Shown piece by piece: positions 9,306-34,985 of a stretch of DNA of 34,985 bases. Both the position numbers and the translations under genes were made by a program. The stretch is taken from the NCBI GenBank assembly GCA_903929735.1, contig CAIYVW010000031.1, positions 1 to 34,985 of the forward strand, read 5' to 3'. The number at the start of each line of letters is the position of its first letter. Positions within the stretch are counted from its first letter, which is position 1. Source of the stretch: an uncultured bacterium. Its GTDB lineage: Bacteria > Patescibacteriota > Minisyncoccia > Phycocordibacterales > UBA9973. Under the pieces are notes generated by a model. It did no database searches. It was not told where the DNA came from and saw only the letters and a list, made by a program, of their open reading frames with translations.

Positions 9306-9345
9306 TAAATTAAAAACCCCGACATGTGTCGGGGTTTTTAATTTA
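9306..9345. terminator. Bidirectional terminator with 19-bp perfect stem
   Basis: TAAATTAAAAACCCCGACA-TG-TGTCGGGGTTTTTAATTTA between convergent genes. Confidence 0.9.
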
Positions 9346-10713
9346 ACAATCTATTTCTACAGACTCCCCCGCTAGAGGTACATGGGTGTGAACACCTAAG
9401 TTATCTTGTAATTTCTGAGCTAAGAACATTGAAGCTTTAGGCTCTCCCATAAGTAAAAATACTTTTTTAACTGTTTTTGCTGTATCTTCAACAAAAGAAA
9501 CTAAATGATCAGAATCTTTATGTCCTGAATAACCACTAATCATTTCAACATTAGCTTTTATATGTATATCTTCACCCATAATACGAATCTTCTTCGCTCC
9601 ATTTTCTATAGAACGACCAAGTGTACCGACTGATTGGTAACCGATAAGAAGTATAGTATTATTTGCATAAGGCAAGTAATTCTTTTCATGATGTAAAATT
9701 CTACCTCCATTACTCATACCACTTCCTGCCATTATAATCTTAGGGTCAGGAGCATGTAGAATAGCTTTTGATTCTTCTGTATCTTCTGTCATTTTAAGTC
9801 CTATAAAATCAAAAACATCATCCCCTCCTTTTATTATTCTAAGGGCTGTTGGATTAAAATATTTCTCATATTTTTCATAAACTGCAGTTAATTTTATAGC
9901 CAAAGGAGAATCCAAGAAAATAGACATGTGGGGAATAATTTTATTCTCTATTAAAGTATCTATTTCGTAAAGTAGCTCCTGTGTACGCTCTAAAGAGAAA
10001 ACAGGAATCATAAGTGTACCTTTTCTATCATAATTCTCTTGGATAATTTGTTGTAATTTTTTCTTTCTTGTATCTCTATCCTCGTGATTTCTATCTCCAT
10101 AACAAGATTCCATAAATAGATAATCTGCATCTGTTATTTTTTCTGTATCTCTTAATAAAGGAGAAGGAGAATTTCCTAGATCTCCAGTAAATACAATTTT
10201 TTTATTATTATAAATAATTTCCAACATACCAGAACCTAATATATGTCCTGAATCTTTAAATGAAAACTGAAAACCATGATCAATATTTAATTTTTGACCA
10301 TATTCAAGAGTATCCCATGAATCTATAGCTTTCTTTATATTTTCTGCTGTATAAATTTCAGCAAGACCGTGTTCCTCATCTCTAGATAGAAAGTGCGCTG
10401 TATCTGCCAACATTATATCTGTTATTTCTTTTGTAGGAATTGTAGAAACTATTCTGCCTTTAAATCCTTCAGAAATAAGCTTAGGTATTCGTCCTATATG
10501 ATCTATATGTCCATGAGTTATAAAAAGAATATCTATGGAAGGTACATCATATGGAAACTTCTCCCAATTCAAATCATCTGCTACTTTTTCTCCTTGTATA
10601 AGACCACAATCAACCAAAAATTTCTTACCATTACCCTCTATTAAAAAATTGGCGCCTGTAACAGTACCAGCACCAGAGCAAAATGTAACCTTTAATTTTT
10701 TATCATTCTCCAT
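9343..10713 (-). CDS. MBL-fold/beta-CASP family RNA-processing hydrolase
   Basis: FITHGHIDHIGRIPKL, GSGMLEI, FTGDLGNSPSPLL, APDPKIIMAGSGMSNGGRILHH, ISGYSGHKDSDHL. Confidence 0.9.
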   Translation of the reverse strand: MENDKKLKVTFCSGAGTVTGANFLIEGNGKKFLVDCGLIQGEKVADDLNWEKFPYDVPSIDILFITHGHIDHIGRIPKLISEGFKGRIVSTIPTKEITDIMLADTAHFLSRDEEHGLAEIYTAENIKKAIDSWDTLEYGQKLNIDHGFQFSFKDSGHILGSGMLEIIYNNKKIVFTGDLGNSPSPLLRDTEKITDADYLFMESCYGDRNHEDRDTRKKKLQQIIQENYDRKGTLMIPVFSLERTQELLYEIDTLIENKIIPHMSIFLDSPLAIKLTAVYEKYEKYFNPTALRIIKGGDDVFDFIGLKMTEDTEESKAILHAPDPKIIMAGSGMSNGGRILHHEKNYLPYANNTILLIGYQSVGTLGRSIENGAKKIRIMGEDIHIKANVEMISGYSGHKDSDHLVSFVEDTAKTVKKVFLLMGEPKASMFLAQKLQDNLGVHTHVPLAGESVEIDC

Positions 10714-10767: not shown

Positions 10768-10819
10768 TCTCATAGAGGTATAATCTCTGGGGCCAGCTTG
10801 ATGTTGGACCTCTATGAGA
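10768..10819 (+). repeat. Composite element unit 1, module I hairpin
   Basis: 44-nt core ATAGAGGTATAATCTCTGGGGCCAGCTTGATGTTGGACCTCTAT, 41/44 identical to the reverse complement of 15354-15397; closing stem TCTCATAGAGGT/ACCTCTATGAGA. Confidence 0.85.
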
Positions 10820-10829
10820 CGATACACTG

Positions 10830-10942
10830 AAAAACTAAAATAATATCATAAAAAGGGTTTGCGCAAGGCTGTCGAGCCGAGCAATAAGGAAAATTTCAGC
10901 AGAAATTTATCCGGACCTTTTTATGATATTATTTTAGTTTTT
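10830..10942 (+). repeat. Composite element unit 1, module II long-stem hairpin
   Basis: 27-bp perfect stem (10830-10856 / 10916-10942) capped by a 59-nt structured core, about 53/59 identical to the core at 15240-15324 on the minus strand. Confidence 0.85.
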
Positions 10943-12468: not shown

Positions 12469-15201
12469 TTAAATACTTCTATATTTATCCATTATTTCTT
12501 CTTCTATTTCTTCTCGAGTTCTACCGTATTTTAGATACGATAATTCTTTAATTTTATCTACTATTTCAGCATTTCCCTTAGGTGTCATACTAAAGTGAGA
12601 TGTCATACTAAAAGGTTTTGTAGGAGTTCCATTTACAAGCATACTTACATAAGAATTAAAATTATCTAACTTCATAATATCTTGAGCTGTGAATGTGGGT
12701 TTAAACTTCTGCTCTACAAAGTTAGCATCTTCTGTACTTATACGATAGATAGCCATTGATCCAACGTTTCCGAAAACAGCATTCTTAATATTTTCTTCAA
12801 GTTGAGATATATATTGATGAGCGATGGTCAGAGATAAACGATATTTACGAGCTTCAGAAAGGATAGATGCTATAGAATCTGTTGTGACATTCTGGAATTC
12901 ATCTATATATAAATAAAAGTCATTCATTTTTTGACCATACATATCTACACGTGAAAGTGCTGCCATCTGTATTTTACCTACAAGAAGAAGACCTATAAGA
13001 TTTGCATTCATTTCACCTAATCTACCTTTTGAAAGATTTACTAAAAGTATTTTCTTATTATCCATTATTTCTCTGAAATTAAAAGCAGATCTTTCTTGAA
13101 GAACAACTGGACGCATAATGTCGTTCGAGATAAAATTATCAAACTTTGAAGTAATATAAGGTACGAAGTTTGCTATAGATTGATCTCCTGTTGTCTTCTC
13201 TGCATTTACCCAGAATTCTTTAATAATTGGATTTCTACATTTAGCACAAAGTGAATCTCTATACTCTTTGTTGCCTAAAATTCTAGTTATTTCTATAAGA
13301 GTTGCGTGATTCTCTGGATCATCCATAGCTAAAAATGCTGAATTTTTAAAATATTGTTCAAACATAGGACCCATTGATTCTTTAGTAAAAAGTTTATTAA
13401 AGATACTCATAAGTTCATTCACTACGAAAGTCTTTTGTTCTGGATAACGTGGATCATACTCAAGCATATTAAGACCCATAGGACGAGCTGTATAAGCAGG
13501 ATCAAAGTATATAACGTCATCAATACGTTCTTTAGGAACATAACTTAATATATCTTGTATATCACTACCATGTGGATCAATAAAGCAACAACCATCTCCA
13601 TTCTTAATATCCTGAGCTATCATATTCTTTAGAATAGTAGTCTTACCAGTTCCTGTTTGACCTATCACATACATATGGCGCATTCGATCTTCACGAGACA
13701 TATGGATTTCTGTATCCTTACCTCTATAACTATTTATACCAAGTGTAATACCTTCATTACCCATTTCCATTGGTGCTGGAGCGATACCCGCTTTTGCTTG
13801 TTTAAGTTGAGAAGAAACAACTCCATAAGGAAAATGAAAAATGGTAGCAAGTTCTTTTAAATTTAGAGGCATAGAATATGAGTCAGAGAACATTCGATAA
13901 GAAAAGTCATGCACAAGATTAGTTAATTCCAAGCCTTTTGGATGATGAAAATTAAAACCATTTCTATCTGATTCAGTGAATTGATTAAAAGAAGACTCTA
14001 TCTCAGAAAGTATTTGTTTAGAACGAGCTTCTGTTTCAGCTGAGGCTACAATACGAATATTCGTAGCCATTATCGTACTTTTAAGTTTCTCTCCTATGTT
14101 TTCTATGGCTTTATCATTTATCTTTTTTTCTTCTTTATTTTTAGATGCTCCAAATAATAATTCAGATGCTAAATTTTTAAATTCTTTAGTAATCTGACGA
14201 GTCATACTAGAAGCAGTACGAACAGACATACCACTTTTAACATCAGCAAGAATAATATGAAACTTTCTAATAATATCATCGTCTTCAGGACAAATTGAAA
14301 ATTGAATAGAAGCACCTTCACCATGCTTTTTTAATTTAGTTAAAACATTTAAAATTACATTTAAAGGATCATAATCTATCGCATCATAAAGTTTGATAGG
14401 ATAAACTTCATGATGAGCTAATGTAGCATAAGAAGCTGAGATTGAAGCATTCTCAGAAAAAATATTATAATCATCTGGAACTTCTACAACTTTTGCATCT
14501 AAATGAACAGCAAGTAACTGCTTCTCAAATAATTCTGCCTTATGAGAAGGAACCGCCACATAAAAAATAAAACTATCTGTCCCCTCTGATATAGCAATCT
14601 CTAAAGTGAAATGATTTCGATTATAGTTTTCCCTACCATCGCCAACAGAATGCATACCAGCATAGAATTGTTCCATGGCTCCAAGTAATTCTTTTAATCC
14701 TTTTTTCTCATTTTCATGATCTGCGGCATCGGGAAGAGTTATCTCAAAGAGTTTCATGTCTAAAGATTTGAAAAGTGGTGTACCTTCTTTTAATCCAGGA
14801 ACTTGGTGTGTGCTATATAAATATTGAACAAGAAAACGATGAAAATCATCATCTATATGAGGATTATTCATACTTACTATTACTGACAAAGCATTTGAAA
14901 TACCTTTATCTAATAGAATACCTAGCATTTCTTCCATTTTACTATCATGAGATTCTGGATGTAATCTTAAAACTAAATTTTCTATTTCCTTCTTATTTAT
15001 AACTGCCGCCTTATGCATAACATCTTCTGGTTCATATTTTCTATACTCAGAAATTAAATTATGAGCAATTTCTTCTTTACTGACTTCTCTTCCTTGCTCA
15101 GCTAATGCTTTCTCTTTTTCTGCTATATGAGCACGCAAAAATTCAAGCTCCTCTTGTGGACTTTTAAATTTAGGAGCATTATTCAAATTAAATCCTTCCA
15201 T
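12469..15201 (-). CDS. TraG/VirB4-like conjugation/T4SS-type ATPase
   Basis: Walker A GQTGTGKTTILKNMI, FIDPHGSD, Walker B FYLYIDEFQNVTT, TIAHQYISQL. Confidence 0.85.
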   Translation of the reverse strand: MEGFNLNNAPKFKSPQEELEFLRAHIAEKEKALAEQGREVSKEEIAHNLISEYRKYEPEDVMHKAAVINKKEIENLVLRLHPESHDSKMEEMLGILLDKGISNALSVIVSMNNPHIDDDFHRFLVQYLYSTHQVPGLKEGTPLFKSLDMKLFEITLPDAADHENEKKGLKELLGAMEQFYAGMHSVGDGRENYNRNHFTLEIAISEGTDSFIFYVAVPSHKAELFEKQLLAVHLDAKVVEVPDDYNIFSENASISASYATLAHHEVYPIKLYDAIDYDPLNVILNVLTKLKKHGEGASIQFSICPEDDDIIRKFHIILADVKSGMSVRTASSMTRQITKEFKNLASELLFGASKNKEEKKINDKAIENIGEKLKSTIMATNIRIVASAETEARSKQILSEIESSFNQFTESDRNGFNFHHPKGLELTNLVHDFSYRMFSDSYSMPLNLKELATIFHFPYGVVSSQLKQAKAGIAPAPMEMGNEGITLGINSYRGKDTEIHMSREDRMRHMYVIGQTGTGKTTILKNMIAQDIKNGDGCCFIDPHGSDIQDILSYVPKERIDDVIYFDPAYTARPMGLNMLEYDPRYPEQKTFVVNELMSIFNKLFTKESMGPMFEQYFKNSAFLAMDDPENHATLIEITRILGNKEYRDSLCAKCRNPIIKEFWVNAEKTTGDQSIANFVPYITSKFDNFISNDIMRPVVLQERSAFNFREIMDNKKILLVNLSKGRLGEMNANLIGLLLVGKIQMAALSRVDMYGQKMNDFYLYIDEFQNVTTDSIASILSEARKYRLSLTIAHQYISQLEENIKNAVFGNVGSMAIYRISTEDANFVEQKFKPTFTAQDIMKLDNFNSYVSMLVNGTPTKPFSMTSHFSMTPKGNAEIVDKIKELSYLKYGRTREEIEEEIMDKYRSI

Positions 15202-15209
15202 ATGAAAAT

Positions 15210-15215
15210 ATTATA
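15210..15215 (-). promoter_or_regulatory. -10 box (TATAAT) of the TraG-like gene, possibly leaderless
   Basis: TATAAT ends 8 nt upstream of the ATG at 15201, immediately after repeat unit 2. Confidence 0.45.
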
Positions 15216-15223
15216 TCACAATA

Positions 15224-15340
15224 AAAAATTCCCAAATAGCTCTTCTCAGAGGGTACGGATAATTTTCTGCTGAAAATTTCCTCATTGCTCGGCTCGACAG
15301 CCTTGCGCAGCCCCTCTAATAAGACTATTTGGGAATTTTT
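15224..15340 (-). repeat. Composite element unit 2, module II long-stem hairpin
   Basis: 16-bp stem AAAAATTCCCAAATAG/CTATTTGGGAATTTTT plus an inner imperfect stem; core (minus) TGCGCAAGGCTGTCGAGCCGAGCAATGAGGAAATTTTCAGCAGAAAATTATCCG matches unit 1. Confidence 0.85.
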
Positions 15341-15353
15341 ATTTGCAAACAAA

Positions 15354-15397
15354 ATAGAGGTCCAACATCAAGCTGGCTCCAGAGGTTGTACCTCTAT
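15354..15397 (-). repeat. Composite element unit 2, module I hairpin
   Basis: Minus-strand ATAGAGGTACAACCTCTGGAGCCAGCTTGATGTTGGACCTCTAT, same 44-nt length as unit 1. Confidence 0.85.
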
Positions 15398-15409: not shown

Positions 15410-16177
15410 CTAAATCTTCGTTATAATTTCTGCCTCTCCTTCAGTAATAAGTATTGTATGTTCAAAATGTGCAGAGCGAGAGCCATCAGAAGTTTTTATA
15501 GTCCAATTGTCATTAGCACTTATTATCGAAGCTTTACCAATATTTAACATTGGTTCAATAGCTATTATCATTCCTGGTATTAATTTCTGACCCTTTCCAG
15601 CTTTACCAAAATTAGGAACATAAGGATCTTCATGAATTTTAACTCCTACTCCATGGCCTGCTAATTCTCTAACAATTCCATATTTCTTTCCAGCAAATGA
15701 TTCTATAGCATGTCCTATATCACCAACAGTAGCACCCCCTTGAGCAGCCCAAATACCTATTTCTAGAGCTTTTTTTGTGTCATCTAGTAACTTCTGGTCT
15801 ACTTTAGAAATTACTCCCACAGGAACAGTTACAGCATGATCAGTAAATAACCCTTTGTATTTAAGTCCTAAATCAAGAGATACAATATCTCCTTCTTTTA
15901 AAATTTTAGTTTTAAGAGGTATACCATGTACTATTTCATTATTAACTGAAATACAAATTGTAGCAGGAAAAGCTTTCGGTGCTCCTACCGGTTTATAATT
16001 CAAAAATGCAGGAATACATCCCTCTTCTTTTATTAAATCATATGCATACTTATCAAGATCGTAAGTGGAAATTCCAGGCTCAACTTTTTTAGCAACTTTT
16101 GCTAGAACTTTTGCCAATATTTTACCTCCTTCTTTGATAGTTTTTATTTGTTCTGGTGTTTTTATTATAATAGCCAT
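15410..16177 (-). CDS. map: Type I methionine aminopeptidase
   Basis: CISVNNEIVHGIP, GDIVSLDLGLKYKGLFTDHAVT, ELAGHGVGVKIHEDPYVPNFG, IAIEPML, FEHTILITEGEAEIIT. Confidence 0.95.
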   Translation of the reverse strand: MAIIIKTPEQIKTIKEGGKILAKVLAKVAKKVEPGISTYDLDKYAYDLIKEEGCIPAFLNYKPVGAPKAFPATICISVNNEIVHGIPLKTKILKEGDIVSLDLGLKYKGLFTDHAVTVPVGVISKVDQKLLDDTKKALEIGIWAAQGGATVGDIGHAIESFAGKKYGIVRELAGHGVGVKIHEDPYVPNFGKAGKGQKLIPGMIIAIEPMLNIGKASIISANDNWTIKTSDGSRSAHFEHTILITEGEAEIITKI

Positions 16178-27225: not shown

Positions 27226-27906
27226 TTATTTATTTAACCACTCAAAAATTTCTTTTTTAAAAATTAAAGGGTCTTTAAAATAATCTGGAAACATCTCCTT
27301 ATTTAGAATTAAATTCTCTGATCTTTTAATTAAAAGATAATCATTTAAGCTACTCCATTTGTAAGTATTAATGAAACTTATTGCCTCTATTTTATCCCTT
27401 ATTCCTATTTCTTTCCAATTAGATTGAATTAATTTAACTGGATTTAAATGTATATATGAAAATAAATACTTTGCTTGAACTTCATCCTCGACATGAACAG
27501 ATTTAAACTTTCCTTCAAACAAAGAACCAGTTCTACTGTGTTTTTTATTAAAATATTTTGAATATGCTGTACACAGCTTACTCATAAACTCTGTTATATT
27601 ATTTTTACCAAAGCCTTGCTTTGGGGATTTTGGTAAAGATATTAGATATAAATGAAAATGATTGGGCATCAAAACCCATGCTCCGATAGAAACCAGTCTA
27701 TCTCCTCTTTCAAAATCCCAAGCATTTATTTTGGATTGAATAATATCTTCTCTAAAATTAACTCTTTTATTTGAATTACAAAGATATAAAAGTTTAACAA
27801 ATCTATCTCTATCTTCATCATCAATAAAAATTAATTGTTTATTATTACCTCTATTATAGATATGATAATATTCACCTTCTACAAGAGGAACTTTTCTTAT
27901 AGACAT
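27226..27906 (-). CDS. REP-associated tyrosine transposase (RAYT; IS200-like Y1 transposase)
   Basis: EGEYYHIYNRGNNKQLIF, WVLMPNHFHLYLI (HUH), SKLCTAYSKYFNKKHSRTGSLFEGKFKSVHVEDEVQAKYLFSYIHLNPVK. Start MSIRKV at 27906. Confidence 0.9.
   Translation of the reverse strand: MSIRKVPLVEGEYYHIYNRGNNKQLIFIDDEDRDRFVKLLYLCNSNKRVNFREDIIQSKINAWDFERGDRLVSIGAWVLMPNHFHLYLISLPKSPKQGFGKNNITEFMSKLCTAYSKYFNKKHSRTGSLFEGKFKSVHVEDEVQAKYLFSYIHLNPVKLIQSNWKEIGIRDKIEAISFINTYKWSSLNDYLLIKRSENLILNKEMFPDYFKDPLIFKKEIFEWLNK
27604..27637 (+). repeat. REP hairpin copy 3, inside the RAYT coding sequence
   Basis: TTTACCAAAGC-CTT-GCTTTGGGGATTTTGGTAAA; encodes the in-frame segment LPKSPKQGFGKNN. Confidence 0.8.
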
Positions 27907-27927
27907 ATAATATATATTATTCCAAAT

Positions 27928-27956
27928 ATTTTCCCAAAGCAAGGCTTTGGGAAAAT
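27928..27956 (-). repeat. REP hairpin copy 4 (upstream of RAYT, inverted)
   Basis: ATTTTCCCAAAGC-AAG-GCTTTGGGAAAAT; loop is the reverse complement of the other copies. Confidence 0.9.
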
Positions 27957-27963
27957 AGAACGT

Positions 27964-28016
27964 CAACAAAAAATACCCTTTCGGGTATTTTTTGTTGATA
28001 GAGATTTTTATTTATT
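27964..28016. repeat. Direct repeat copy 2 (rplB terminator)
   Basis: CAACAAAAAATACCC-TTTC-GGGTATTTTTTGTTG followed by GATAGAGATTTT..TTATTTA. Confidence 0.85.
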
Positions 28017-32306: not shown

Positions 32307-34985
32307 TTAAATTGCTCTTATAGTTGGACTTATCTTACCAACTTTAACTGTTGCAGTTTGAGTACTATCTCCACCATCACCAGAACAATACAAACTATAT
32401 ATAGTAGTCTTATTCATATTTTTAATAGTCAGACTATTGTTTGTTGTAGGAGTTAAACCATTCGTTAATATCAGATCTGTTGAAGTATCGAAGTTGGATT
32501 TCAAAGTACAATAATTTGCATTTGTTGAACTCCATGACAATGTAACACTTTGTCCATAATTCAAATATGTAGTAGAAGGACTTACAGTTATAGTAGAAGA
32601 TGCAGCAGGTGGTAACACTTTAACTGTTATTGGGAATGTTGACCAAGAAGAATTTGCTCCATTAAAATCTTGAGCCAATGCTTTTACAGAGTATGACCCT
32701 GCTGTTGGCCATGAATTTGTTCCTGATGTCATAGTTGTTCCTGAAGCAGAATAAGGTGGATTTAATGGCACCCAATTATCGGCCACCCCATCATTGTTCC
32801 AGTCAAAACCATAACGAACTGTATCTCCTTCAGGGTCAGTAGAAGTTGCATTAAATGTCTGAAGGACATTCGTATAGAAAGTAGAATTACCGGTAATAAC
32901 AGGAGCAACAGGAGGATTATTTACAGTTACAGCTATCCACGCACTACAATTATTATTTTCATTTATTTCTGTGATAGTTCCAGTGTTTGCAGCTGAACTT
33001 TTATCAGCACAAGCTCTCATATAAATAGTACCTGCTGAAGAAAATGTAATAGACTTAGAAGCAACTGAATTTCCACCAGCTCCAATAGCTGCCATACCAG
33101 CAACTGGGTAATCTACTACTCCACTTGCACCATTAGACACAGGAGAGGTCTGGAATAAGTTAGTAAATGAAGATCCAGTAGAAGCAGGGCCTGTATTTGA
33201 AATAGTAGAACTAAATGTCTGTGCAACATTTAAATTAGCCATAACAGGAGTAGTAACTGATGCTGTTAGGTCTGCTCCTGTCGTCGTAAATGTTCCATCT
33301 ACTGAATAACCAGTACCAGCGGCATTTGTTGCATAACCTGCATAGTAATATGTTGTTCCAGGAGTAAGTCCTGAGATAGCAGAAGTAAATATTCCAGTTG
33401 TAAGTCCTGTTGTAATAGTTGTACATGTATCTGTTCCTAATCTTGGACTTCCAGCTATGTCATAACAAACACCTTTAGCTGAAATTGAAGCTGGACTACC
33501 AAGTGATGAAACTGTAGCTCCTAATGTAGCAGTTGTAGTAGAAATAGAAGCTGAAGTTGGAAGTGTAACTGTTGGAACCATAGTTGTCGTAAATGAAACA
33601 TCAGAACCATAAGTTGTACCTTTGGAGTTAGTTGCGTATGCACGGACATGGTATGTATTATTTGGAGAAAGTGATGTCATACTATCTGTCCATGGTCCAC
33701 CTGATGCAAAACCATCTGTTGTCTTACCTATATTAGTAGCAGTTGTAGGATTTGATGTTGTTCCCCATACTATACCACTTACACTTATTACTGCTCCTCC
33801 ATCTGTGACTATAGTACCTCCTCCTGAAGCTGTAGTTGGTGTAATACTTGTAACTGGTGTTGTAGTTGTGACGGTTGGAGTAGTAAGAGCTACTGTAGTA
33901 AAAGATAAATTAGAACCATATGATGTTCCTACACTGTTAGTCGCATAGGCTCGAACGTAATATAAAGTATTTGGATTAAGACCTGTAATGCTGTCAGACC
34001 ATGGTCCACCTGAGGCCCAACCATCTGTTGTTTTTGTAGCAAGAGCTGTTGTAGGATTTGATGTTGTTCCCCATACTATACCACTTACACTTATTGCTGC
34101 TCCTCCGTCTGAAGATATTGTTCCTCCACTTAGAGCAGAAGTATAACTTACACTTGATGGAGTTACTGTTGTGACGGTAGGAGATACAGCTGTTACACTA
34201 CAGGAAGTATTTGTATATGTTCCAGACATAGAACCTGCTGAACAAGTTCTAGTTTGATAAGTACAAGAAGAAGGATATGTCACAGATGATGTAGAGTATG
34301 CTGTATTAGAATATCCATTTATAACGCTTCCCCATGGAGTACCAGTACATCCTGCTGTACAAGATGTAGCGGTATAACTTCCTGACAAAGTTCCATTAGT
34401 ACATGTTCTTGTTTCTGAACTACAAGATCCTGCAGGAGAAGAAGATAAATATGCTGTATTTGAAGTTCCACTTGTCATTGTTCCCCAAGGGGTTCCATTA
34501 CAACTTATTGCAGATATAGTGGTAAACGATAAATCTGATCCATATGAAGTTCCAAGTGGGTTTGTTGCATAAGCCCGAACGTGATATGTAACACCAGCAC
34601 TTAGACCTGTCATACTGTCAGTCCATGGTCCACCAGATGCAAAACCATCTGTAGTTTTGCCTATATAAGAAGAAGTAGTTGGATTAGAAGAAGTTGACCA
34701 AACAATACCACTTACACTTATTGCTGCTCCTCCGTCTGAAGATATTGTTCCTCCACTAACAGCAGAAGTAGAACCTATGCTTGTAACTGCAGCTGTTGTA
34801 ACCGTTGGAGCAGTAGAACCTGCAGGTACAGAAGATAAAGAAGTCCAAGAACTACAGTTATCACTCTCGTTTGTTTCAGTAACAAGACTTGTACTGTCTG
34901 CACAAGCTCGAACATAGTAAGTTCCAGTAGAAGCAAAAGTATAAGACGGAGCTTGTATTGTGTAAGATTGACCACCTGCTGGAAC
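32307..34985 (-). CDS. Large repetitive, probably secreted/surface protein (partial; 5' end beyond the window)
   Basis: Frame stays open past the M at 34613 to the window edge (ASGGPWTDS precedes it). Repeats SDGGAAISVSGIVWGTTSNPTTA..KTTDGWASGGPWSDSITGLNPNTLYYVRAYATNSVGTSYGSNLSFTT; Cys-rich CTGTPWGSV..TRTC; CARDB-like and PKD-like C-terminal segments. Confidence 0.85.
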   Translation of the reverse strand, partial: VPAGGQSYTIQAPSYTFASTGTYYVRACADSTSLVTETNESDNCSSWTSLSSVPAGSTAPTVTTAAVTSIGSTSAVSGGTISSDGGAAISVSGIVWSTSSNPTTSSYIGKTTDGFASGGPWTDSMTGLSAGVTYHVRAYATNPLGTSYGSDLSFTTISAISCNGTPWGTMTSGTSNTAYLSSSPAGSCSSETRTCTNGTLSGSYTATSCTAGCTGTPWGSVINGYSNTAYSTSSVTYPSSCTYQTRTCSAGSMSGTYTNTSCSVTAVSPTVTTVTPSSVSYTSALSGGTISSDGGAAISVSGIVWGTTSNPTTALATKTTDGWASGGPWSDSITGLNPNTLYYVRAYATNSVGTSYGSNLSFTTVALTTPTVTTTTPVTSITPTTASGGGTIVTDGGAVISVSGIVWGTTSNPTTATNIGKTTDGFASGGPWTDSMTSLSPNNTYHVRAYATNSKGTTYGSDVSFTTTMVPTVTLPTSASISTTTATLGATVSSLGSPASISAKGVCYDIAGSPRLGTDTCTTITTGLTTGIFTSAISGLTPGTTYYYAGYATNAAGTGYSVDGTFTTTGADLTASVTTPVMANLNVAQTFSSTISNTGPASTGSSFTNLFQTSPVSNGASGVVDYPVAGMAAIGAGGNSVASKSITFSSAGTIYMRACADKSSAANTGTITEINENNNCSAWIAVTVNNPPVAPVITGNSTFYTNVLQTFNATSTDPEGDTVRYGFDWNNDGVADNWVPLNPPYSASGTTMTSGTNSWPTAGSYSVKALAQDFNGANSSWSTFPITVKVLPPAASSTITVSPSTTYLNYGQSVTLSWSSTNANYCTLKSNFDTSTDLILTNGLTPTTNNSLTIKNMNKTTIYSLYCSGDGGDSTQTATVKVGKISPTIRAI

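Follow-up and report, generated by a model that had tools for sequence, protein, structure and literature searches.

A composite of two dispersed palindromic repeats between map and a TraG-like gene in a Patescibacteria genome

The window analysed here, a stretch of 34,985 nucleotides from the 763-kb, 52-contig genome of an uncultured member of the Patescibacteria, contains between map and a TraG/TrwB-like coupling-ATPase gene a minus-strand element, unit 2, which is made of a short hairpin (module I), a spacer, and a larger hairpin (module II) raised on a stem. The same module pair, on another stem, is found inside the same window as unit 1 (10772-10934). The features are the following.

15410-16177, minus strand: map, type I methionyl aminopeptidase (stop codon 15412-15410)
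15354-15397, minus strand: module I of unit 2, a 44-nt REP-like hairpin AGAGGTACAACCTC...GTTGGACCTCT, repeat of 10772-10815
15341-15353, minus strand: spacer of 13 nt between module I and module II (sequence)
15331-15340, minus strand: copy-specific 5' arm of the outer stem, AAAAATTCCC, pairing mainly with its own 3' arm
15234-15330, minus strand: module II, AAATAG...CTATTT with inner P1, P2, P3 and a three-way junction (covariance model, covariation)
15291-15302, minus strand: P2 hairpin of module II, GGCTGTCGAGCC (covarying helix 2)
15257-15281, minus strand: P3 hairpin of module II, GGAAATTTTCAGCAGAAAATTATCC (covarying helix 3)
15224-15233, minus strand: copy-specific 3' arm of the outer stem, GGGAATTTTT, running into a T run (sequence, fold, flank pairing)
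15210-15215, minus strand: TATAAT box of the downstream gene (sequence; kept in relatives with and without the element)
12469-15201, minus strand: TraG/TrwB-like coupling-ATPase gene, ATG at 15201
10772-10815, plus strand: module I copy of unit 1, repeat of unit 2 module I
10840-10934, plus strand: module II copy of unit 1, on an unrelated A+T stem (covariance model, 98.3 bits)
27226-27969, minus strand: RAYT-like gene (NCBIfam REP_Tyr_transpos, E-value 5.9e-12, under the curated cut-off)

Two further features of the window are recorded for completeness: a Beta-CASP nuclease (9343-10713, minus strand), which matches the NCBIfam type VII Cas14 and archaeal aCPSF1 models below their cut-offs, and diverged direct repeats of about 150-190 nt (33579-34799), within and beside the ORF at 32307-34613.

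A first-pass annotation of the window had placed module I at 15397-15354 on the minus strand, and this is confirmed by its 93% complementarity to the unit 1 copy. The spacer and the gap after the map stop codon are also where that annotation put them, and each measures one nucleotide less than it gave (13 instead of about 14 nt, and 12 instead of 13 nt, respectively). Module II with its stem spans 15340-15224, of which 15328-15234 matches the covariance model described below with 105.6 bits. The 16-bp stem (AAAAATTCCCAAATAG/CTATTTGGGAATTTTT) is perfect, but it had been called unrelated, which is true for the outer 10 bp alone (AAAAATTCCC/GGGAATTTTT), specific to the unit 2 copy; the inner 6 bp, AAATAG/CTATTT, are common to most copies of the genus. 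Compared with shuffled sequences, unit 2 folds with z scores of -7.1 (minus strand) and -6.8 (plus strand) as RNA and of -8.1 as DNA, and the module II stem ends in a T run on each strand. The TATAAT box lies, as had been described, at 15215-15210, 8 nt ahead of the ATG at 15201. It adjoins unit 2 without being part of it, as it occupies the same place in about 12 relatives, with the element or not, and is kept wherever the gene downstream of map has its own gap (both by eye).

Neither module is confined to this site. BLAST gave 18 matches in the source genome, where the two modules are found independently of each other and in either orientation, and matches were obtained in 66 of the 101 genomes searched, the source genome included. 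Further module I copies were found in the source genome, again in both orientations, and module II forms head-to-head pairs at several loci. At one place (G000:C6:14592-14724; G and C numbers denote genomes and contigs) module I is nested within a module II copy, which implies that one moved into the other. The modules are thus found separately, in composites and once nested, in line with the reading of unit 2 as a composite element, and the pattern of a gene-specific UTR, conserved at the map site only, which had been named as the observation that would speak against this reading, is not seen. Unit 2 joins two dispersed palindromic repeat families. With a covariance model built from 51 copies, we detected module II in 24 of 24 congeneric genomes (2-34 copies each, 378 in total) and, in a sample of 381 genomes from across the phylum, in 26, some of them with about 10 copies. 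No Rfam family matches module II, and no account of it in Patescibacteria was found in the literature, of which our coverage is incomplete.

Module II is a 95-nt three-way-junction hairpin composed of the outer stem P1, of P2, a 4-bp helix with a GNCG loop, and of P3, whose stem carries a bulged A and ends in a YAGYAR apex. Its unpaired bases (e.g., CGAGCA) are nearly invariant and its helices covary: two-sided changes occur at 26 of 30 pairs, with 240 two-sided cells, a number that falls to 56 in shuffles and does not exceed 44 in slid controls. The inner P1 (AAATAGTCTTATCAGAGG) is common to many copies of the genus, and in distant families the whole of P1 differs in sequence while pairing is kept. 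We compared these pairs with those of tmRNA from the same genus, folded from its alignment. G-U pairs make up 1.7% of module II pairs versus 14.8% in tmRNA of the same genomes, and one-sided changes account for 8% of pair changes versus 32%. By heuristic ORF calling, module II is found 30 times in sense and 30 times in antisense orientation relative to tandem genes (n = 60), and 8 times each in divergent and convergent gaps. Because G-U pairs are so scarce, the hairpin appears to be under constraint in its DNA form, or on the two strands alike. Such strand symmetry is not predicted by a function of the RNA of one strand; it is predicted by a hairpin that acts in DNA or by homogenization through template copying.

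The part of the stem that lies outside the core behaves differently. Beyond ATAG/CTAT, the left flank of a module II copy scores on average 10.4 against its own right flank versus 2.7 against the right flanks of other copies, and 29 of the 51 copies exceed the 99th percentile of swapped flank pairs, a level that the unit 2 stem itself also passes. Outside the core, every copy has a stem sequence of its own, in which each arm is complementary chiefly to the opposite arm of the same copy. Lengths of 12-17 bp and a composition of mostly A+T are common among the stems. As regards MITE features, in a comparison made between species, the inner ends AAATAG/CTATTT are common within the genus and the flanks are inverted, not direct, copies.

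Insertions within genes, in which protein homology shows the native side, allowed the origin of the arms to be addressed. In dus, four congeners (G005, G023, G001, and G022) have a short native loop and no insert; at this loop G014 and G017 carry module II in frame and free of internal stops (45.9 and 71.2 bits), and other congeners carry different palindromes. In iscS, module II lies in frame in G001 (79.2 bits), module I is present in G000, and RAYT-type or other caps occupy the site in others. Congeners that lack an insert exist for both the dus and the iscS site. Each gene (dus, loci L273-L293; iscS, L172 and L303-L324) has a permissive loop, where in-frame palindromes of different families are found according to the congener. 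REP and RPE families are known to include palindromes that lie in frame within genes (PMC3733652). In five of the six cases tested, the inserted arm matches native gene sequence in inverted orientation. The clearest is iscS of G011, whose arm repeats 22 nt of the native left sequence exactly, in inverted form, with none of 400 shuffles as good; the corresponding numbers are 5/400 for G017 dus, 7/400 for G010 dus, 4/400 for G023 iscS, and 11/400 for G020 iscS. These last four positive cases are only modestly significant, and G014 dus gave no inverted-copy signal in the shuffle test. In iscS, G004/G012 and G015 share a palindrome whose two outer arms have been replaced together (by eye).

The same intergenic sites were then compared among relatives. 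The gap 3' of map holds module II in G000, G010, G021, G003, G017, and G007, two copies of it in G005 and a modified copy in G006; other palindromes are found there in G012, G004, and G019, and a plain hairpin resembling an intrinsic terminator in G002 and G018, as well as in G011 and G023, where the next gene is different. The gap is very short, or the genes are fused, in G008, G001, G013, G016, G020, and G022. Empty sites in sister genomes had been proposed as a check, and the element is indeed absent from the map gap of G015, in a comparison of species and not of strains; the congeners are about 80% identical in DNA, a distance at which insertion and loss between genes look alike. Upstream of dus, G000 carries module I, other genomes carry module II in one orientation or the other, and G014 and G010 have different palindromes; G012 and the genomes with fused genes have no element there. 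A second cap family, with a TTTACCC...GGGCTCC-type core on long site-specific stems, was encountered at several of these places (map gap of G012 and G004, loci L121 and L120; upstream of dus in G010, L276; iscS of G011, L318). At two sites the module II core is inverted while flanks and outer arms are unchanged, between G021 and G003, where a good match of the core is obtained in flipped orientation only, and between G012 and both G023 and G001. The module II core thus flips in place between species.

The position of unit 2 raises the question of transcription, and the first-pass annotation had suggested a terminator or insulator. As with intrinsic terminators, a hairpin and a T run are found in the slot downstream of map; because unit 2 takes the place of a terminator, the promoter-like box that follows it is conserved, and its stem ends in a T run on either strand, it may terminate transcription at this site. 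Extending this to the whole family, so that module II would be a dedicated intergenic terminator or insulator, with a cap that the transcription machinery recognizes and a stem that is free to vary since only pairing matters, seems unlikely to us. A requirement on both strands would account for the scarcity of G-U pairs, the fold is very stable, the stem has T runs on both strands, and ordinary terminator-like hairpins fill the map slot in G002 and G018. On the other hand, the even split of orientations (30:30) and of divergent and convergent gaps (8:8) leaves no 3'-end bias, module II copies lie in frame within dus and iscS, and module II has a large conserved cap, all of which set it apart from intrinsic terminators; moreover, a pattern scan for terminators passed over the module II stem, its loop being too long for that scan. 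The suggestion is thus possible for the map site and not supported as a property of the family.

Plain hairpins in the map slot of some relatives, and the small natural quasi-palindrome that G002 has in iscS where G011 has a long capped one, would also be expected if a mobile element targeted the loops of palindromes that were already present, for instance those of terminators, so that the stem would be the former target instead of a product of the element. This we regard as quite improbable, given that element-free sites show no palindrome in dus (G005, G023, G001, and G022), upstream of dus (G012), or at map (G015), and that the many long A+T stems are unlike the compact terminators of these genomes. 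A multicopy structured noncoding or cis-regulatory RNA of the riboswitch or ribozyme kind, to which the strong covariation and the conserved unpaired bases might point, is very hard to reconcile with the near absence of G-U pairs, the equal use of both orientations, the lack of an Rfam match, and the different elements held by relatives at the same site.

The two modules differ in their relation to RAYT-like genes, which were found in 21 of the 24 congeners. Most of those inspected lie between copies of an inverted palindrome of their own, as does the RAYT-like gene of the window (TTCCCCAAAGCAAGGCTTTGGGGAA); others lie on contigs C12, C36, C43, and C51 of G000. No module I copy was seen next to a RAYT gene, but cousin palindromes (AGACGTCCAACGTCT) surround two of them, one in G000 and one in G005. 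Since these have the same architecture as module I, the latter is probably a REP relative, for which a RAYT-type (HUH) transposase is a candidate mobilizer, and for module I only. We also considered an attC-like integron site, because module I contains GTTGGAC, and set it aside, as its copies lie dispersed in either orientation and we noticed no integron-like array. For module II, a RAYT mobilizer was rejected: at 24 RAYT loci there was a single match, which was not flanking, and module II and RAYT numbers are not correlated (rho 0.004). An autonomous parent with module II at each end was considered as well; one inverted pair, 3.7 kb apart (G041, L253), encloses ORFs with no obvious transposase (by eye). 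No mobilizing gene for module II was found among the RAYT loci and ORFs inspected.

Besides intrinsic terminators, three known systems resemble unit 2 in part. With REP/BIME/REPIN elements and their RAYTs (PMC2817692, PMC3116915) it shares short dispersed palindromes, inverted pairs, hybrid composites, and RAYT-carrying genomes, in one of which (G000) palindromes with the architecture of module I flank the C12 RAYT. Module II departs from them by its size (about 95 nt), its three-way junction, its location off RAYT flanks and a stem that changes with the site, and alignments show no GTAG tag at the foot of either module, where flanks vary from copy to copy (by eye). CGTC-tagged REPs and Rickettsia palindromic elements (PMC3733652) likewise combine intergenic and in-frame intragenic palindromes, small genomes, and no known dedicated transposase, but their stems are 8-9 bp long and fixed within a family; the CGTC tag, the 8-9 bp stem, and the 4-5 nt loop are absent from the module I and module II structures, and we noticed no sequence relation. 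In mitochondria of Nematomorpha, perfect inverted repeats within genes change both arms together, for which template switching has been proposed (PMC6649704); those palindromes have no conserved mobile cap, whereas the stems described here are tipped by a repeat family.

On balance, we find it rather probable that unit 2 is a pair of small nonautonomous mobile palindromes of the REP/BIME/RPE kind, with stems derived from host flanks and kept perfect by template switching. Module II would then be a cap, a conserved folded core tipping a long stem of local DNA sequence. During replication, the hairpin would form where the DNA is single-stranded, and a polymerase switching template on it would copy one flank in inverted form, either making the stem at insertion or perfecting it afterwards. 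Selection for pairing could be an alternative keeper of perfect stems. Effects on transcription at the map site, by termination or by insulation of the next gene's promoter, would be a plausible by-product. A bolder proposal, which we offer tentatively, is that across Patescibacteria the cap makes its own stem on arrival by hairpin-primed template switching that copies the host flank inverted, and flips later. A stem made in this way would possibly amount to an inverted, rather than direct, target duplication.

To our knowledge, small palindromic repeats are known in many bacteria, and how most of them spread is unsettled. A conserved cap, changing perfect stems of host origin, flips, and in-frame inserts in two genes provide evidence, at the level of sequence, for the ways in which palindromes may grow and move, and they add a repeat family that is present across a phylum whose members have tiny genomes, in which repeats would be expected to be rare. 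If the inverted copying of flanks holds true in strains, the family would be a natural record of template-switch events.
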